A stretch of 64,000 nt of DNA, from positions 248,001 to 312,000 of the forward strand of contig JABTUS010000003.1 of the NCBI GenBank assembly GCA_015075305.1, given 5' to 3'. Both the position numbers and the translations under genes were made by a program. Shown here piece by piece: positions 22,398-35,146 of this stretch (position 1 is the first letter of the stretch; every line of letters starts with the position of its first letter). This DNA comes from Opitutaceae bacterium. Its GTDB lineage: Bacteria > Verrucomicrobiota > Verrucomicrobiia > Opitutales > Opitutaceae. The notes under the pieces are model-generated. The model did not search any database and was not told the DNA's origin. It saw nothing but the letters and a program-made list of their open reading frames with translations.

Positions 22398-23464
22398 TCA
22401 CGTAGTGGCGAAGGTTCCGGTAGATCCGGTTCCGACGTCGCGAAGCGCCGAACCGGTTGAGGCGAGGCGGTTGCGCGCGATTGTGGCTGCGAGCAGCAGC
22501 GCCTGCACGAGGGAGCGCGGGTCTCCGCGTCCCGTGCCGGCATTCTCGAAATCGGTTCCATGTTCGACCGATGTGCGGATAAGGGGGAGACCGAGCGTGA
22601 CGTTCACCCCCTGCCAGATTCCAAGCATCTTGGCTGCGACATGCCCCTGGTCGTGATACATCGCGATGGCGCAGTCGAACTGACCCTGCAGCGTGCGGAA
22701 AAAGAGGGTGTCGCCGGCATACGGTCCGCTTACCCGGAAGCCGAGGGCGCTCGCCTGCTCGATGGCGGGCGTGATGAATTTAATTTCCTCATCGCCAAAG
22801 ATGCCGCCTTCGCCGGCATGCGGATTGAGTCCGGCGACCGCGATGCGGGGCTCCGCAATCCCAAGCTCCCTTACTCCCGCGTGCGCAATGCTGATCACCG
22901 AAACGATGCGTTCGGGGCGGACGCGTTCAATCGCTTCTCGCAGGGAGACATGCGTGCTGACATGGCAGACGCGCAGATTCCCAGCCACCAGCATCATCGT
23001 CACCTGAGGCTTTCCGCAAAGGTCCGCCAGCAGTTCCGTGTGTCCGTCAAAATGATGCCCCGCCGCATGAAGCGCCGCCTTGTTTATGGCTGAGGTGACG
23101 ACGGCATGCGCCTTCCAGCGAGCGTGAACTCCACGGCGCGCTCGATGCATTCGTACGCGGCCTGGCCGCACGTGGGGTCGATCCGGCCGCGCACGAGCGT
23201 TTTCTCATCGATGTTGGCGAGGTCGACAACATCGATGAAACTCGGATCATCGCCGGCGAATTCAGGTGATGACACGCGGCGCACCGTTGCGGAGCTCCCC
23301 GTGATTTCTGCAGCCGCGCGCAGCGTGCCGGCGTCTCCGATCACAACCGGCCGGCAGACGGCGCGCACCTCCGGGAGTGGAAGGGCTCTTGTCAGAAGCT
23401 CCGGTCCTGTGCCAGCGGCGTCACCCAGGGTGACTGCGAGGATCGGCTTGGCGACTCTGCTCAT
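22398..23464 (-). pseudogene. pdxA: PdxA-family 4-phospho-tetronate dehydrogenase, frameshifted
   Basis: The N-terminal part (ILAVTLGDAAGTGPELLTRA) is in one frame and the remainder in another; the break is near 23108 (TLAGR / WKAHAVVTSAINKAALHAAG). Metal and substrate residues survive: GHTELLADLCG and AMYHDQGHVAAKML, plus NPHAGEGGIFGDEE. Length after repair, about 350 residues, is normal. Next to a DUF1537 kinase this is the PdxA2 type, which oxidises 4-phospho-D-threonate or erythronate and decarboxylates it to dihydroxyacetone phosphate, rather than a vitamin B6 enzyme. Its ATG overlaps the stop of the DapA-like gene (ATGA). Confidence 0.88.
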
Positions 23465-24374
23465 GCCAGGTTCGCGATCTGCTGGAGTTGTCGCCGCAGT
23501 TCATCGACCTCCGCATCGCCGGCCGCGAGCAGCGGGGAAGCATGGCACGTGTGCACAACCCGTGTATTTCCATGATCGCCTTGAGCGCTGCAAGGAGCTG
23601 GGAGATGGTTCGGCCCTTCTGGTACGTGGCGTTGATGGTGTCCACGCGATGCTGCGCGGCGTCCGCTGCCGCGGAGTCGCCCGAACTCAATGCGTCCATC
23701 AGCAGACGCAATGCGCGCGGCGCAAAGTTTCCGGCGCCGGGGACGCAGCCATCCGCGCCCGCGCGCATGCTGCGGCTGGTGAAGGCGATCGACCCGCAGA
23801 ACACGGCGAAATCGGGATGTCCGGCGAATTGCCGGCTCAACTGTTCGAGACGCGCGCCGTCGGGTTCCGAATCCTTGATCCCGGCGATCAGAGGATGCTG
23901 GGAGAGCCGTTCGACGACGTCGAGCGGCAGGCTCTGTTTGGTGGTCTGTGGAATGTTGTACAGGTACAACGGGCCGCCGACCGCGTCCGCGAGGTTCTTG
24001 AAATACCGCTCCATCATTTCCGGAGTCAGCGGATAGTAGGAGGAAGGTTGCCGACCACCGCATGGACGCCGAATCGGAGGAATTCGCGCCCGAGTTCGAC
24101 CGAATGGGAGAAGCTCGTGTCACCAATTCCGCCAAAGAGGAGCAGGCGCCCCCTGGCGGCGTCGCTCGCGAGGGCCATGAGCCGGCAGCGCATGCGCACC
24201 GACATGGAGGCAAACTCACCCGTTGTGCCGGCCACCATGACGCCCTGGCAGCCTCCGGCCACGATGTGGTCCGGGATGCGGCGGAGCGCCGGCTCGTCGA
24301 TTTCGCCCGCGCTCGTGAACGGAGTCAGGAGCGGCACGATGGCGAGCCCTCTCAGCTGCGTCCTTTGAGACCAT
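23461..24374 (-). pseudogene. DapA/NanA-family aldolase, frameshifted
   Basis: Pieces in at least two frames: GLAIVPLLTPFTSAGEIDE and VAGTTGEFASMS (the conserved TTGE), a shift near 24030, then GGPLYLYNIPQTTKQSL (catalytic Tyr) and LAGIKDSEPDG (Schiff-base Lys). A shift near 23540 leads into LLAAGDAEVDELRRQL. A further shift probably lies near the start (ATG at 24374 out of frame with GLAIVP). All catalytic residues are intact. Class I aldolase fold; in this context a 2-keto-3-deoxy sugar acid aldolase or dehydratase is likely. Confidence 0.87.
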
Positions 24375-24400
24375 GAGTCGTGAGTCTTTTCATGAAGCGT

Positions 24401-25544
24401 TCAGTAGGCTGCGCGATAGATGCTTTCGGCGTCGGCAATGGAAAGTTCCCGGGGGTTGTTTTTCAAGAGCCGGTGACTTTCATCGCCTCGGAGGCGAGGC
24501 GCGGCAGATCGTGCTCCGGTATGCCCACATCGCGGAGCCTGAGCGGTATGCCGCAGGCGGCGGCGAGCGCCACCAGGCGTCGCAGACCGGATTCTGCGGT
24601 GGCCATTGGCGTTGATTCAGGCGCACACCCGAGCGCCAGTGCAATCTGTGCGTAGCGCTCCGGCATGGCGGGAAGGTTGAAGCGGAAGACGTGCGGCATC
24701 AGAAGCGAATTGGCGACGCCGTGTGCGATGCGATACTCGCCGCCTAGCGGATACGAAAGGGCGTGAACCGCTGCGGTGTTGACCGGAGCCAGGCACAGGC
24801 CGCCATAAAGCGCACCGAGCATCACCTGCGTGCGCACCGCGGGATTCAAACCATCACTGACGGCGGCCTCAATGTTTGCGCCGATGTTGCGGATGCCTTC
24901 CAGCGCGTACACATCGACAGCAGGGTGGGAGAAATTGTTCGCATAGGCCTCCATGCAATGAACCAGGGCGTCGATGCCGGTCGCAGCCGTGACAGCGGGC
25001 GGCATCGAAAGCGTCAATTCCGGATCGCAGATCGCCACATCGGGCACGAGGTGCGGACTGACGACACCCTTCTTCAGGCGCTCCGATTCATCGAGCAGAA
25101 TGGCCGCGGCCGAAACTTCCGCGCCGGTGCCCGCCGTGGTGGGAATGCAGGCGAGGCCTCGCGAACGTCGCTTGAGCAACCCGACGCCGAAGACCTCTTG
25201 CACAGCCTGGGCCCCATCGTAGAGCGCGGCAACCAGTTTGGAAACGTCCAGCGCGCTGCCGCCGCCGATGCCGACAATTGCGTCGGCCCTGAAATCACGC
25301 GCCAGCGCGATCACCCGCTCGAAGAGTGCGATCTCGGCTCCCGGTCGACTCCAGTGAAGCATTCGACTGTCGCTCCGCGCGCCCTCCGGGATGAAAACAG
25401 CGACTGCCGGGTGGCTGCGATCGTTGGGCTGGTGACGACAAACAGGCGGTTCCAGCCGGCGAGACCGAACTCGTCCGGGCCTTGCCCGACGCATCCGGGG
25501 CCAAAAAGAACCCGTCTGGGCTGCTGAAGTGTGACGCTTCTCAT
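24401..25544 (-). pseudogene. Iron-containing alcohol dehydrogenase, frameshifted twice
   Basis: The start MRSVTLQQPRRVLFGPGC is in one frame. A shift near 25395 leads into IALARDFRADAIVGIGGGSALDVSK (NAD(P)-binding), IPTTAGTGAEVS, and the metal ligands TGIDALVHCMEAY and HALSYPLGGEYRIAHG. A second shift near 24470 is needed for the natural C terminus (RLLKNNPRELSIADAESIYR). Repaired length is about 380 residues. Probably reduces or oxidises the small aldehyde released by the aldolases. The ATG overlaps the upstream sulfatase stop (ATGA at 25541-25544). Confidence 0.9.
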
Positions 25545-26899
25545 TTCGAATAAGGATTGCCGGGATCCCCGGGAGGCGGGAGTGCCTCCGATGCACCGAG
25601 CGATGGATCGTAGTCGGGATTCAGGCACATCTCCTGTGCGCCGACATCGTGCCGCCAGCCGCGAAGGCGTTCGGCGAGTTTCGCGCACACCTCCGGCTTA
25701 TTCGCCGCCAGGTTTGTCTGCTCCGACGGATCGTGCCTCAAGTCGTACAGCTCATAGGGCGGGCGACCAGGAACCCCGCCGATTGTCTGCTCGAACCATT
25801 CGATGATCTTGAAATCCCCGATCCTCGCGGCGCCGCATGGAGCGAGGCCAAGGTGGTGGTAGTGGGAAAATGCCATGCAAGAATGGGATGGGCGGGCACT
25901 GGCGCGGCATTGCGAACCAGCGCTGATTGCAGGCTCCGGCCATCCAGGTCTTTGGGGATCTTCTCGAAGGCAAAATCCAGCAGCGTGGGAAACAGATCGG
26001 TTCCCAAGACTGGTTCGGCGTGGGTCGAGGCGGGCACAATGCCGGGCATTGAAATTATGAACGGCACCCGGATGCCCGCCTCGTAGAGGTCCGCCTTGCC
26101 CCCCTGAGCGGCTTGCAGTCATCGCTGCGGCCGAACGCGCCGTGGTCCGCGGTGAATACGACGAGGGTGTTCCGCTCCAAGTCATGTGCACGCATGCCAT
26201 CCATCAGCCTCCCGATGCTTTGATCGAGCTCCTCGACCATGGCGCCGAGCACCGGACGCTGATGGTCCAGATTCGAACCGGGTTTGATCATGTACTTTCC
26301 TGTCAGAGACGCCGGGCCCAGTTCGGGACGATGCAGGCTGTTGTGGGCGAGCACGCAAAAAAAGGGCTTGGAGCGCTCGCGCGTCACGAAGTCGATCGCT
26401 GCATCCGTGAGCCGTCGCACATGATGCGGATCCGCCTCCGGGTCGGCGCCGGGCTCGGGCTTGCGGGTGACAAGCACTTCGTCGAAGCCCTGCGATTCGG
26501 GATCCGTGGGACGATTCGGCTGGTAGTTGTAATCCCGCGCGAGGTGCCACTTTCCAAAATGCCCGGTCGCGTATCCAGCGGCGCGCAGGGCGTCTCCCAG
26601 GGTGACAGCCTCAACGGGGAGAAATCGCTGCCAGTCCGGTGTCTGGAGCCGGGGATTCTTCGGAACAGTCCCGGGAATGTAGTTCGTCAGATGCAGCCGT
26701 GCCGGGTGGAGCCCGGTGTACAGCGCGGCGCGTGCGGGTGAGCAGACCGGACTCGCACTGTAGGCTGGGTGAAGCGCGCGCCTCCGGCGGCGAGTCTGTC
26801 GAGATGCGGAGTTTCGTAGTAGCGACTGCCATAGCATCCGAGTTGGTGCACGCCCATGTCATCGGCGATGACGAGGAGGATGTTGGGCCGCCGGGTCAT
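25541..26899 (-). pseudogene. Sulfatase (arylsulfatase A-like), frameshifted
   Basis: [20 protein letters not shown] starts at 26899. After a shift near 26765 comes the active-site block [12 protein letters not shown] (Cys type, C-S-P-A-R), then GYATGHFGKWHL. LVVFTADHGAFG precedes a shift near 26100, and VPFIISMPGIVP precedes another near 25870. The final piece runs GDFKIIEWFEQTIGG to PPYELYDLRHDPSEQTNLA. Cys-type sulfatases need formylglycine maturation. No clear signal peptide is present at the start. Would remove sulfate esters from the glycan. Its start overlaps the stop of the symporter gene (ATGA). Confidence 0.9.
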
Positions 26900-28457
26900 G
26901 TGGACGCAGCGCCCTGCCCGCGCCACGGAACGCTCCGGTACGTCAGGCGATCGACGTCGTCGGGAATGTAGCCGCCCAGAAACCTGCTCGCCATCAAGCC
27001 CGTTCCGAAAAGCACGAGGTGGCCAAGCACGCCGATGAGCAGCGGATTGAGCGGAAAATTGAAGCGCCCGAGATCGATGATCCGCGTCCTGGCTCGGTGA
27101 GAATCGCCCAGGTCGTGTATGCCAGGCAGACTCCGATGCCGACATAACACCCGCGACGCGTTGCGGTGCGACTGAAGAATCCAAGGCAGAACAGTCCCAG
27201 CGTGCCGCCGGCGAGAATGGAACCGACAGTGACGACCCGCTCCATCAATGGCGCGGAATCCTTCGTCGGAAGCAGCAGCCACGCCACCAGCATGGTGAGC
27301 GCGCCTCCAAGAGTCACCATCGCACGACCACAAAGAACCTGCGTCCTGTCCGATGCGCCTGGGCGAAAGAAACAGAAGTAGTCGCGGGTCAGAACCGTGG
27401 CGACACTTGAGAGATCAGCGCTCACGCTGGACATGGCTGCGGCGAGAATCGCCGCGACCACGAGTCCGAGCAGTCCGACCGGCATGAAGTTGGCCAGAAA
27501 GTAGGGCATCACGCTGTCGCCCAGCGCCGGCGGCGGAATCTTCCCGAGGGTGAAAAAACCGTTGAGACAGGCTCCGGCAAACATGAAGAGGGCGAAAATC
27601 GGAAGACACAGGAGGGCGCTGACAAACGCCGCGCGGCTGGCTGAACGATCGTCCCTGGCCACGAGGTAGCGCTGGACGATGTGCTGGTCGGTCGAGTAGC
27701 GGCGCGTCCACTGAACGGCGTAGGCCAGCATGAAGAGCCACATCGTGGTGTTGTGCGTGCTGAACAGCATGTCCCAGGTGAAGCCTTCCACGCCAAGGCT
27801 GAGTTTGCCCTGTCGCCAGGTCTCACCCACAACTGCAAAGGGCGCTCCCGCTTCCGGTGCAAAAGCAGGCGGAGCAGGATGAAGATGCCGCCGACGATCA
27901 GGACGACGCCTTGAACAACATCCGTCCAGACGACTGCGGTGACGCCGCCGAGCATGGTGTAGACTATCGTGAAGATTCCCACGCCGAAAATGACCGGTCG
28001 GAGGTTCCATCCGGTCAGAACGTTCAGCGCGATCGCCGTCGTGATGAGCGTGACGCCGAGATCAAAGATGCGGTCGGCGAGAAATCCGAAGGACGTGTAG
28101 AATTTTCCACCGAGTCCGAAGCGCTGTCCGATGTACTCGTACGCGCTCATACGCACAACGCGGCGGTAGAAGGGAACGACAATCCGCGACACCACCAGCA
28201 GCACGATGGGCACGGTCATGTGGGGGATGAGAAGGATGAGTCCCTTCTGGTAGGACGTGCCCGGATGGCCGACGATTGTGCCCCGTGCTGATGATCGTGG
28301 CCATGATGGTGAAGGCCACCGCCCACATCGGTATGCTTCTGCCGGCGACGAAGTATTTTTCCGCGGTTTTCTGTCCGCGCGATACATGAATCCCGATCGC
28401 GGCGATCAGGACAAAGTAGAGCGCAATGACGACAAGGTCGAGAGGGGCGAGGTTCAT
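26896..28457 (-). pseudogene. SSS-family sodium/solute symporter, frameshifted
   Basis: Starts MNLAPLDLVVIALYFVLIAA and continues through AEKYFVAGRSIPMWAVAF. After a shift near 28275 it resumes in SYQKGLILLIPHMTVPIVLL and YEYIGQRFGLGGKFYTSFGF. Another shift near 27850 precedes MLAYAVQWTRRYSTDQHIVQ, and one near 27030 precedes [15 protein letters not shown]. The repaired protein has about 520 residues and 13 hydrophobic segments, normal for the family. Predicted inner-membrane sodium-coupled importer for the sugar acid. Confidence 0.88.
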
Positions 28458-31147: not shown

Positions 31148-31824
31148 GGACAGTGGGAACGCTCAAGGCGCCAGTGGCCTGGAGGGTGAAGTGACTTGAG
31201 GGGCATGTTGCATCGCCTGACGCCTGATGGCTCTGCGAAAGGCATTGTGGTCAAGGATCGACGGAGTCCGTGAAGCGACGCGGCATCCGATGGCCTCTCC
31301 CAGCAGATCGATCGTTCTCTGCGAACTCCGCCGCCGGTTCTGCGGCGCCTGTTGATTTGAGCGCAATGTCCACAATCCAATCAGTACCCGCCCCAACAGC
31401 GAACACGGTAGTCTTGCCTGTACCTGTCGTATGGGGAAGCATCACTTTCGACGAGTGATGAAATTGAGCTGTTAGATCAAGTATAAAACATGAAATAGTA
31501 ATCGAATTCGAATGTTTCACAAGGCTGGATCAATCCACGGGGTCGACTTCGAGTGCTTCGATGATCGATTGGGGCTGTTCTCTCGATAATCCAGCTTCAG
31601 CGAGGCATTCATGTCTCGATGGTGATCGCATGGCTCGCCTCGCTTAATTTCCGTTATTTCAACAAAAAATGTAATGTATCGATTTAAGTTCGTGGGAAAG
31701 CTTCGATATTCATTTCATTGACTGCATATGGGCTGCGTTCGAGACATGCACCATCGGCTGCCATTGGGTGAGAATTCCCATGTCGCAGGCGGCCCCCGGG
31801 CGCTTGCAGGATGTTGTCAAACTC
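31148..31824. other. Intergenic region between divergent operons
   Basis: About 680 bases separating the minus-strand catabolic operon from arsC. It contains a candidate operator at 31490-31520 and an AT-rich stretch (31640-31700) unlike the flanks. An 89-codon open frame on the minus strand (31520-31251) with a P-loop-like TGTGKTT is not supported by any family. Confidence 0.55.
31490..31520. promoter_or_regulatory. Candidate LacI-family operator, site 2
   Basis: Same arms and spacing as 10833-10863: ATGAAATA, 15 nt, TGTTTCAC. The spacer contains the palindrome TCGAATTCGA. It lies 343 nt upstream of the first gene of the minus-strand operon, which would place that operon under the same regulator as the plus-strand genes. 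Confidence 0.35.
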
Positions 31825-32283
31825 ATGTGCGATTCCAAACCAACCGTTCTCATACTTTGCACCGGGAATTCCTGCCGCAGCCAGATGGCCGAGGGTGTTC
31901 TGCGGACCGCTGCCGGAGACTTCCTCAATGTTGTCAGCGCCGGATCCAAACCTGCGGGCTTTGTGCATCCCCTTGCCTTCAAAGTGATGCAGGAAATTCA
32001 AATCGATATTTCCCATCATGTTTCGAAGGACATGCGCCTGTTTGTGTCGAAAGGGGTGGAAACCGTCATCACCGTATGCGATTCCGCCGGACAATCGTGT
32101 CCGCATTTTTCAGGGAAGGTGAACCGCCACCATTGGCCGTTCGAGGACCCGGCTCTTGCGAAGGGCGGTGACGAGGAGGTTCTGGCTCAATTCCGGCGCA
32201 TACGTGATGAAATCCGACGCGCGTTTCTGGCGTATGCTGATGGCCGGCGCGATCAGATGAGGCTTAGGGACTCGCGATCCTGA
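31825..32283 (+). CDS. arsC: Arsenate reductase, thioredoxin-coupled type
   Basis: 152 residues from the ATG at 31825; an earlier in-frame ATG at 31768 would add a leader with no match. The low-molecular-weight phosphatase P-loop CTGNSCRS carries the nucleophilic Cys and Arg. Two more cysteines lie in VCDSAGQSCPHF, as in the three-Cys ArsC of Gram-positive type. WPFEDPA is the conserved general-acid Asp region. Reduces As(V) to As(III) in the cytoplasm. The methyltransferase gene follows 78 nt downstream. The frame is intact although its neighbours are not. Confidence 0.92.
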   Translation: MCDSKPTVLILCTGNSCRSQMAEGVLRTAAGDFLNVVSAGSKPAGFVHPLAFKVMQEIQIDISHHVSKDMRLFVSKGVETVITVCDSAGQSCPHFSGKVNRHHWPFEDPALAKGGDEEVLAQFRRIRDEIRRAFLAYADGRRDQMRLRDSRS

Positions 32284-32361
32284 CTCCGTCGTGTTGCGGC
32301 GGAGTCATTGGACGGCCAGATTCTTTGCATCCTTTCACGCGTCGGTTCGTCCAGAGGGTGT

Positions 32362-33235
32362 ATGAATCAAACAACATTGAATCCAAAAGAGATCAGGCGC
32401 GGAGGTCCGGCGTCGCTACGGCGAAATTGCCAGGGGTGCCACGATCCAAGGGGCCTCTAAGGAAACAGGCGGCGTCTGCTGCCAGCCGGCGGACACCGGT
32501 GGCGGCGCCAGCATCTGCTGCGGCACCGGAACGGGAACGCAGGCGCGCACGCGTGACCGCTCTGAAGCGGATGCCGGCGGCATTCCCGAAGGGGCGGATC
32601 TCGGGCTCGGCTGCGGAAATCCTGTCGCGCTTGCCTCTCCGAAGCCCGGCGAAACCGTGCTGGACCTCGGAGCTGGCGCCGGATTCGACGCGTTTGTCGC
32701 GGCGCGCGCAGTCGGCCCGACCGGGCGTGTCATCGGAGTCGATATGACACCGGAGATGGTTTCCAAGGCGCGGATGAACGCGAGCAAGGGAGGCTACGAA
32801 CAAGTCGAGTTTCGCATCGGCGAAATTGAATCGCTGCCGGTTGCGGATCGATCGGTGGATGTGATCATTTCCAACTGCGTAATCAACCTGTGCCCGGACA
32901 AGCGCTCTGTTTACAGGGAGGCGTTTCGCGCACTCCGTCCCGGCGGGCGGCTTGCGGTGTCGGATGTGGTCGCGCGCGAGGAACTGCCTGAGGAAGTGAA
33001 GCGCGACCTTGCCTTGCACAGTGGATGCCTTGCCGGTGCAACGCTGCAGGCGGAACTGGCCCGAATCCTTGAAGAGGCGGGGTTTGTCGACATTCGCATC
33101 CGGCCGAGTGGCAGCGGTGATGCAGGGGGCGCAGGCTGGCTTGGGGCGCGGGGCCGGGAATCCGCGGTTTTTGCGGCCGAGGTGACTGCGACCAAGCCTG
33201 ACTCCGCGTGTTGTGGACCGAAGTGCTGCTCCTGA
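32362..33235 (+). pseudogene. arsM: Arsenite methyltransferase, one inserted base
   Basis: Starts [12 protein letters not shown]. One extra C near 32399 (AGG-C-GCG) displaces the continuation [13 protein letters not shown]. The rest is one open frame: [25 protein letters not shown]-binding [19 protein letters not shown], then [12 protein letters not shown] and [12 protein letters not shown]. The three cysteines expected of ArsM (GCGNP, SNCVI, SGCLAG) are all present, and the tail is CCGPKCCS. Methylates As(III) using SAM. If the inserted base is an assembly error the gene is functional. The sigma gene starts 1 nt after its stop. Confidence 0.88.
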
Positions 33236-33665
33236 CATGGCCCGTCGCAACAATGCTGATTCGCCGGAAGGCCGTCCGGCTGGCAGGGACCCCTCGCGGG
33301 ACGCTGTGGAATCGCTCTGGCGAACGTTTTCCGCTCCATTGAAGGGATTCCTGCAGGCGCGCACGCGTTCAAGAGCCGATGCCGACGATCTCCTTCAGGA
33401 GGTGTTTGTGCGTGTGCACAAACGCCTGCCGTGTCTTCGGGATCCGATGAAACCTGTGGCTGGATCTATTCGATCGCCCGCAATGCGGTGATCGATCACT
33501 ATCGAATGAGGCGGGAGCAGGTTCCGTTGGACTTCGAACTGGAGTCGGACGATCGGACGGAAAGTGACCGCTTGGATTTCACGCCGGTCGTCCGAAAATT
33601 TGCCGCGACACTGCCCCCGCAGTATCGCAGGCCGCTGATTCGGCATGACCTGCACGGGGAGACAA

Positions 33666-33673
33666 TGGAGGAG
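33666..33673 (+). repeat. Target site duplication, left copy
   Basis: TGGAGGAG immediately before the left terminal inverted repeat. It is identical to 34980-34987. Eight base pairs is the usual duplication length for ISL3 elements. Confidence 0.92.
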
Positions 33674-34979
33674 GGTTCTTCACGGAATCGTGTGGGTAGC
33701 GCCTGAGGGAAGAAGGGGCGCGAGGTCGAGCTTGCCGCAGAAAAAGAGGATGCGGGCGCGGTAGTTTTCGAAGCGGCGGAAGCCGCGGGCATCGGCCTTG
33801 ATGGCTTGGATCTTGGAGTTGAAGCCTCGGTGAGGGCATTGCGATCGGGTGCTGGAAGTACGTCAGAAGATTCACCAGATGGCTTTGAGGGTGCGGGCCA
33901 CGGCCATCACCTTCGGCAAACGGCTGCGCATGACGGTGCGGTACCACTGGAGAAGAAGGCGTTCGCCGCTGGCCGCGTCCGACTGGCTCCAGAACCCACC
34001 ATCTGCTCCTCAGGCCAACCAAAGCCGGAGGTCTCTCAGGTTCATTTCCAGCAGCTCGGCGAAGCTGGCCTGATGCTTCTCCGGCACGGTGCCATGCAGC
34101 CAAAGATACCGAGTCTGCTTGAGAGTCCTGCGGTCGCCGTTTTCGGCCAGCTTGGCCGCCTCCTGCCGGCGGGTCTGGTCGACCGCCTCGTTGAGGTGCT
34201 TGGAGACATGGAAACGGTCATGGACGATCGCAGCCTGCGGAGCGGCGAGATCCGCGTGGCAGCAAAGTTAGCCCTCATGTCCATGGCGGCGGCCTCCACT
34301 TTCAACCGCTGCGCTTCCGGCAGGCATCTCCACAGGGCAATCGCCTGCTCGGTGTCCCGTCCAAGCACCACGTCCAGCACCCGCGACTGGCCGAGGTCGG
34401 TCATCAGCGAAACGTAACTTTGGCCTCGCAGAAAACTCTTTCATCGAGGCCGACTCGACGGAGTCCTCCGTGCTCCGTCGAGCCAGGCCCCGCTCCACGG
34501 CCCGCTCGATCAGCCGTTGGACGCTGTCCCAATGCAGTCGCAGCAAATCTGCGGCCTGCGTCAGCGACCGACAGGCCGCGATCACTGCCACCGCAAAGGC
34601 TTCAAAGTGGAACGTGAAGCGCGAGCCCGGCTCTGCCCACGGCACCGTCACCGTCTTCACCCGTGCTCTGGCAGGCGCACCGCGGTACCCCGCACCGCAG
34701 TTCCAGAAGGTATTGCATCACACTCAGGTGCCGCCACGTCCTCTCCGGCAACCGGTCGTACACCGGGCACGGCTTCCCGCACTCGGGGCATGCCACCGGT
34801 GTCCGCTCCGGCCAAGCCACGCAGATCGTGACCCGCTCCCGTTCCAGATCCTTCTCCACGTTCGTCACCCTCCAAGGCTTCTCGAGTTTCAGCAGCTGGC
34901 GGTAATGCTCGTTGACGGTTTCTTCCATCCTCACACATTAACCGCCCAGACCCTTTCCCACAACCAAACGTGAAGAACC
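33674..34979 (-). mobile_element. ISL3-family insertion sequence, 1306 bp
   Basis: Ends are 23-bp inverted repeats: GGTTCTTCACG, 6 unmatched nt, TGTGGG at 33674-33696, and the same on the opposite strand at 34957-34979. The first bases resemble the GGCTCTTC start usual for ISL3. The 8-bp direct repeat TGGAGGAG flanks it on both sides. One transposase gene on the minus strand fills the element but has several frameshifts, so the copy is probably not autonomous as read. It interrupts the sigma factor gene. Confidence 0.93.
33680..34928 (-). pseudogene. ISL3 transposase, multiple frameshifts
   Basis: N-terminal zinc-binding domain: CPECGKPCPVYDRLPERTWR and RCGVPRCAC. A shift near 34665 leads to VKTVTVPWAEPGSRFTFHFE and LLRLHWDSVQRLIERAV. 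Another near 34450 gives the catalytic region (DE-KSFLRGQSYVSLMTDL, with the first Asp), then RVLDVVLGRDTEQA. Further shifts occur near 34265 and beyond. The C terminus is GFNSKIQAIKADARGFRRFE and LFFCGKLDL, and the stop codon lies in the left inverted repeat. About 415 residues when repaired, normal for the family. Confidence 0.9.
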
Positions 34980-34987
34980 TGGAGGAG
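34980..34987 (+). repeat. Target site duplication, right copy
   Basis: TGGAGGAG directly after the right terminal inverted repeat; matches 33666-33673. Coding of the sigma factor resumes immediately after it. Confidence 0.92.
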
Positions 34988-35146
34988 GTTGCGCTGGCAT
35001 TGAACCTTTCGCTGCCCGCGACAAAGAGCCGCATCCGGCGGGCGCGGCTTCTGCTGCGCCGGATGCTGGATGCGTGCTGCCGATTTGAGTTCGACAGGCG
35101 CGGCAGGATGATTGAAGCGGTGCCGCGCGGCGCGTGTGACTGCTGA

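Follow-up and report, generated by a model that had tools for sequence, protein, structure and literature searches.

What is lost when an insertion element lands in a sigma factor gene lying among arsenic genes, and what would that sigma factor have controlled? The question arises from the window, by which we mean the whole 64-kb stretch of DNA analyzed here, as it contains an arsC-arsM-sigZ arsenic cluster in which the sigma gene has been hit by an ISL3 element (Table 1). The element interrupts a SigZ-type ECF sigma gene, leaving the cysteine tail and the greater part of region 4 cut off from its first part. Arsenic control has mostly been described through repressors and, to our knowledge, SigZ has been without an assigned role. 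We propose that SigZ is probably a sigma factor that responds to arsenic by itself and serves its own detoxification operon, and that the window carries a broken copy of it. Within the cluster, the arsM part at 32657-33235 scores 252 bits against NF008823 by itself, and an Rfam search of the 64-kb window gave no match. A selenocysteine reading of the in-frame TGA in arsM matches was rejected, as TAA and TAG share the same alignment column and the matches most likely run over a normal stop.

Table 1. Features of the interrupted arsenic cluster, in window coordinates.
Feature	Position	Strand	Basis
arsC, thioredoxin-type arsenate reductase	31768..32283	+	TIGR02691 E 2.6e-36, 124.7 bits (below the cut-off of 174.3); LMWPc
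Predicted SigZ-type promoter before arsM	32326..32351	+	one mismatch to TGCGTCC-N15-CGTC
arsM, arsenite methyltransferase; frame change near 32400 between likely start and body	32362..33235	+	NF008823, 311 bits
sigZ 5' part, region 2 to start of region 4; frame change near 33447	33237..33673	+	TIGR02959 and PRK09637 are the two best profiles
Target duplication TGGAGGAG, left copy, 8 bp	33666..33673	+	exact position at element end
ISL3-family insertion element, 1306 bp, imperfect terminal repeats (17/23)	33674..34979	-	flanking duplication, sister copies, transposase profile
Broken ISL3 transposase (fragments 34602-34934, 34268-34660, 34042-34404)	34042..34934	-	
Target duplication TGGAGGAG, right copy, 8 bp	34980..34987	+	exact position at element end
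sigZ 3' part, rest of region 4 and cysteine tail	34988..35146	+	TIGR02959 E 2e-12, profile 121-166 (piece 34970-35146)
Cysteine tail Cys-Cys ... Cys-Asp-Cys	35075..35143	+	translation

The identity of the interrupted gene rests on profile ranking. TIGR02959 and PRK09637, the two profiles of the SigZ family, are first and second among sigma profiles for both 5' pieces, for the 3' piece and for the relative in the same-genus genome G009. The equivalog cut-off of TIGR02959 (168.65) is not reached by the G009 relative (162.2 bits), and the window fragments fall far below it, so "SigZ-type" is used here in place of a certified SigZ. In this taxon members are found both above and below that cut-off, which 26 of 150 family genomes exceed; the same profile defines the relatives used below, and its name gives no function. 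Together with the transposase profiles, this ranking bears out the first-pass annotation, which had described an ISL3 insertion into a SigZ-type sigma gene.

There is nothing out of the ordinary in the insertion itself. The 8-bp duplication claimed for the 1306-bp element is there at both of its ends, and since TGGAGGAG alone occurs four times in the window against 2.16 expected, it is this exact placement that constitutes the evidence. The 23-bp inverted repeats that had been described are present, with their outer 11 positions identical; however, they are imperfect and match at 17 of 23 positions. Successive transposase fragments match Zn_ribbon_ISL3, HTH_Tnp_ISL3 and DDE_Tnp_ISL3, as well as NF033550, in profile searches. 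Further copies of this element family lie elsewhere in the genome, and perfect 8-bp duplications flank all three copies that retain both ends, namely the one in the window, one on contig 6 (AAGGACAA) and one on contig 7 (ATCGGTTT). The contig 6 sister has an intact transposase frame of 423 aa that reaches 325 bits against NF033550 (cut-off 180), the sole match above the ISL3 cut-off in the genome, and relatives of the element were found in 8 of 56 other genomes. Transposase domains, terminal repeats and the 8-bp duplication are all common to the ISL3 family and the window element, the only unusual point of which is its decayed transposase: no intact transposase was found in the window copy, where the frame is broken. 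The copies on contig 1 (L010) and contig 7 (L011) contain many indels and look scrambled, the latter with scrambled short duplications.

Whether the insertion is recent is another matter. An unaltered duplication had been taken to mean that it happened not long ago, however, this does not follow, because by our own simple arithmetic 16 bases would stay unchanged about two times in three at 2-3% divergence. Over about 1310 bp, 32 substitutions and 12 gap runs separate the element from the contig 6 sister, in which the transposase is intact. The recency argument is further weakened by the broken transposase, a separate frame change in sigZ and frame-broken neighboring genes. An old insertion shared with relatives was also considered and rejected, the SigZ loci of the 150 family genomes being uninterrupted.

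A related claim was that deleting the element and one duplicate restores the sigma frame, in a gene that worked until it was hit. With the flanks joined through one duplicate, the second reading frame indeed runs without a stop across region 4 and ends at 35146; however, this does not give a single open gene, as roughly the first 70 codons of sigZ lie in another frame than the remainder. This frame change is one of the reasons to ask whether sigZ was already a pseudogene, or whether the frame changes are assembly errors, in which case the insertion would say little about a working gene. At 22428-28276, each of four neighboring genes (PdxA, dihydrodipicolinate synthase, sulfatase and sodium:solute symporter families) is divided over two frames, and this block is either in decay or poorly assembled; the scrambled look of the element copies on contigs 1 and 7 points the same way. 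Set against this, rpoC is intact in a single frame, and in a tiling by codon usage the broken stretch is flanked mostly by long open genes, up to about 19 kb on one side and from about 35.5 kb on the other. The sigma pieces themselves retain all 18 residues that are invariant in intact relatives (alignment A1) and 11 of the 14 that are nearly so, from which it follows that selection on sigZ, if lost, was lost late; 123 of 193 positions match the G009 protein. We hold prior decay or misassembly to be a serious possibility, somewhat short of an even chance. A gene functional until the insertion is plausible on account of the retained residues, while the second frame change and the adjacent split genes speak against taking it as given. 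The suggested search of relatives for the uninterrupted gene succeeded: the G009 sigZ is whole, 537 bp downstream of arsM, and all 36 SigZ loci above 150 bits in the family genomes match as one continuous stretch (G082 contains a TAG).

The function of the intact gene is best approached through its neighbors. Our set comprises 37 SigZ loci in 150 family genomes, that is 36 above 150 bits against TIGR02959 and one of 102 bits (G110) included since it is beside arsM. Within 3 kb of arsM lie 29 of the 37 (28/36 if G110 is left out), and 28 of these 29 follow arsM in the same orientation at a distance of 45-619 bp, a gap often occupied by arsN2; arsM and sigZ are probably co-transcribed. Counted from the other side, 29 of 35 strong arsM loci have SigZ, with the window locus and its broken sigZ among the remaining six; the weaker arsM matches of G090 (179 bits) and G016 (167 bits) were excluded from this count. 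Seven of the eight SigZ loci that lack arsM adjoin arsI, arsN2 or arsD. The gene arsI is beside SigZ in G105, G076, G020, G084 and G090, G024 has arsN2 and an arsM remnant, and G169 has arsD together with an arsA-like ORF identified by eye. In G016 (L202, minus strand, from about 3541 downwards) a promoter-like site is followed by an extremely cysteine-rich ORF of <50 aa and then by sigZ; by eye this tiny ORF looks metallothionein-like. Among the >100 weaker TIGR02959 matches listed, only that of G110 was seen by eye near arsM. The association extends to the protein itself, as SigZ is fused in frame to the arsenic N-acetyltransferase ArsN2 in two genera (G021, L079; G022, L082).

Beyond the family the link becomes looser. 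In a phylum-wide sample SigZ was detected in 14 of 387 genomes at E 1e-40, six of them outside the family. Of the five inspected there (all but G360), three carry it at a distance of 36-100 bp from arsM, G405 has a weaker arsM match some 1.1 kb off, and G458 has none of the queried genes at its SigZ locus. A wider scan of contigs across phyla was confined to the best 80 loci, with arsenic genes sought in all 80 and tails read in 25, of which 12 have a Cys-Cys tail. Among these 12, arsM is on the same strand in L084, L086, L087 and L089, and arsI is present in L085 and L094. L084 and L087 apparently duplicate the G071 and G416 loci; with these two set aside, the independent Cys-Cys loci with arsM or arsI belong to Nitrospirae, Thiotrichaceae, Sandaracinaceae and Plesiocystis, the last being the arsI-sigZ locus L094 of Plesiocystis pacifica. 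At the other six, five from Bacteroidota and one from Chloroflexia, arsM, arsI, arsN2, arsD and acr3 were not matched, and no arsenic gene is annotated beside sigZ of Priestia. The arsenic link is not universal in the SigZ family. Two further candidates were discarded: L096 is not another arsM-sigma pair, as its sigma factor resembles SigW more closely and is encoded on the opposite strand, and a viral origin of SigZ was dropped after one scan with the G009 protein in which no relative was found.

A dedicated sigma factor should have a promoter, and the arsM-SigZ loci share a candidate. A dyad count made without a preset motif in 32 upstream regions returned CGTC-N16-CGTC in 28, and in none on the reverse strand. 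The fuller element, TGCGTC-N16-CGTC, is exact in 27 of 30 arsM-led SigZ loci and present with at most one mismatch in all 30, whereas all other spacings from 8 to 25 together gave a two-box element in only one sequence; the family loci G057 and G110 are outside these 30, although the strict site was found in G057 in genome-wide searches. A hexamer, 16 bases and CGTC have what we take to be the geometry of known ECF promoters. Five arsI-led SigZ loci have CGCGTC at the same spacing, and in the window arsM is preceded by the element at 32326, its one mismatch falling in the -35-like box. Among the 12 Cys-Cys loci of the wider scan, seven have a site with at most one mismatch, six of them exact, and no such site was found at the five from Bacteroidota (L091, L092, L093, L095 and L097), which thus carry the Cys-Cys tail with neither the arsenic genes sought nor the promoter-like site. 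As a yardstick, 64 generic ECF loci (592 kb) contain two exact sites and 27 with at most one mismatch. Plasmid SigZ-like loci vary: those of Priestia and Vibrio have no site within one mismatch, that of Nonomuraea has one exact site, and a Rhodococcus sigma locus has three exact ones. These three do not all share the orientation of the sigma gene, and they look like the product of chance or of something else.

Genome-wide, a first strict pattern gave 16 sites in the 150 genomes, 12 just before arsM in SigZ genomes and four elsewhere, against 15 for the reversed pattern. A second strict pattern, applied to the 36 SigZ genomes (about 178 Mb), gave 21 sites in 19 genomes against three for its reversed control, and by coordinate comparison all 21 are at the SigZ locus; it is absent from 17 of the 36, and as it was shaped on part of the same loci, the informative part is the absence of sites elsewhere. 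It seems reasonable, then, that SigZ reads the TGCGTC-N16-CGTC element. An alternative reading would make the two boxes the operator of a different activator or repressor, with SigZ carried along in the operon but active elsewhere. As a direct repeat of 20-bp period, CGTC-N16-CGTC could be bound by a dimeric regulator, and it is possibly an activator site. However, the element keeps a strict orientation and spacing near the start codon, and it also stands before arsI-led SigZ operons and before the cysteine-rich ORF and sigZ of G016. Furthermore, none of the four arsM loci without SigZ, which are all the controls of this kind, has the element upstream, one having a one-mismatch site inside arsM. 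We consider an operator of this kind improbable, and regard the element as a candidate SigZ promoter.

If SigZ activates this promoter, a signal is needed, and the C-terminal tail is where one may be received. Cys148 and Cys149 are invariant in 22 of 22 SigZ proteins (alignment A1), and both, along with Cys171, are found in 11 of 11 loci across phyla (alignment A2). At least two cysteines follow the pair in 20 of the 22, and none does in G076 (L057) and G133 (L074); the G133 system also has a changed CGTC box and only an arsN2 fragment (L171), and perhaps it is a second SigZ system in decay. A structure prediction (mean pLDDT 82, pTM 0.48, tail about 70) has a predicted beta hairpin that follows directly on the last helix and begins with the Cys pair. 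Matches among solved structures included ECF sigma factors such as SigH, SigE and SigW, none of them named SigZ. Clustered thiols suit As(III), and the tail cysteines would be the sensor.

A precedent for such a sensor exists. In CorE-like metal-dependent ECF sigma factors (former ECF44, now partly ECF238), according to the accessible portion of a review, a cysteine-rich C-terminal extension after region 4 is the sensor, a CXC motif in the region 2-4 linker is essential in CorE and CorE2, and CorE is tied to copper (PMC8999054). The short SigZ tail after region 4, with its invariant Cys pair and, in 20 of 22 proteins, at least two further cysteines, may be comparable to the extension described for CorE. 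Unlike the CXC of CorE and CorE2 as described there, no conserved linker cysteine is seen in SigZ alignments A1 and A2. Neither "arsen" nor "SigZ" occurs in that portion of the text, which also mentions ECF287 and ECF288, with many C-terminal cysteines, as suggested to work like CorE (PMC8999054). SigZ may well belong to a group such as these.

Taken together, we consider it likely that intact SigZ is a one-component arsenic switch, with the cysteine tail as sensor and one dedicated promoter before the arsenic operon. In intact relatives, arsenic, probably as As(III), would bind or modify the thiols of the tail after region 4 and thereby activate SigZ, and SigZ-RNA polymerase would start transcription at TGCGTC, 16 bases and CGTC just before an arsenic operon that in most cases appears to include sigZ itself. 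Arsenic would thus be the signal, and presumably no anti-sigma factor would be needed. The broader claim is that Cys-tail SigZ proteins are one-component sigma factors in multiple phyla, binding As(III) directly through the Cys pair and tail cysteines and having essentially one target, their own operon with its dedicated TGCGTC-N16-CGTC promoter; we rate it no higher than evenly balanced because cysteines after the pair are absent in 2 of 22 proteins. ArsR-type repression of ars operons acts on the same kind of output genes as those at SigZ loci. By comparison, the regulator proposed here would be an activating sigma factor encoded with the operon.

The signal may nonetheless be wider than arsenic. 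SigZ could sense a broader thiol, metal or oxidative signal (cadmium, copper, zinc, mercury or disulfide stress), with arsenic genes as one output. The ArsI/CadI family name also points to cadmium, a MerT-like gene and a permease lie near the Marinifilum SigZ locus (L091), and the same tail occurs at loci without the arsenic genes sought. However, arsM, arsN2 and arsD are arsenic genes by annotation and the strict promoter sites in SigZ genomes are at the SigZ locus only, so we regard a broader signal as unlikely, if less so than the operator reading, and favor arsenic.

In the open-access literature we found no paper bringing together SigZ, ECF sigma factors and arsenite, or an ECF sigma factor and arsenite methyltransferase, and those retrieved for SigZ and arsenic were off topic by their titles. 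The link may stand in print elsewhere, and SigZ does not appear in the accessible portion of a paper retrieved in a search for arsenic gene clusters (PMC12607644). From the genomic evidence SigZ gains a proposed signal, target operon and promoter sequence, all of which are directly testable. If true, an activating sigma factor would be added to arsenic control, with potential use in biosensors. The window would then be a natural knockout of an apparently dedicated arsenic sigma factor, in which arsC- and arsM-type genes are kept and the switch is broken.

Finally, some upstream regions are more elaborate. Two tandem promoter-like sites lie upstream of arsM in three loci (G165, L168; G087, L172; G112, L174), and a small cysteine-rich ORF is located between the first of these sites and arsM.
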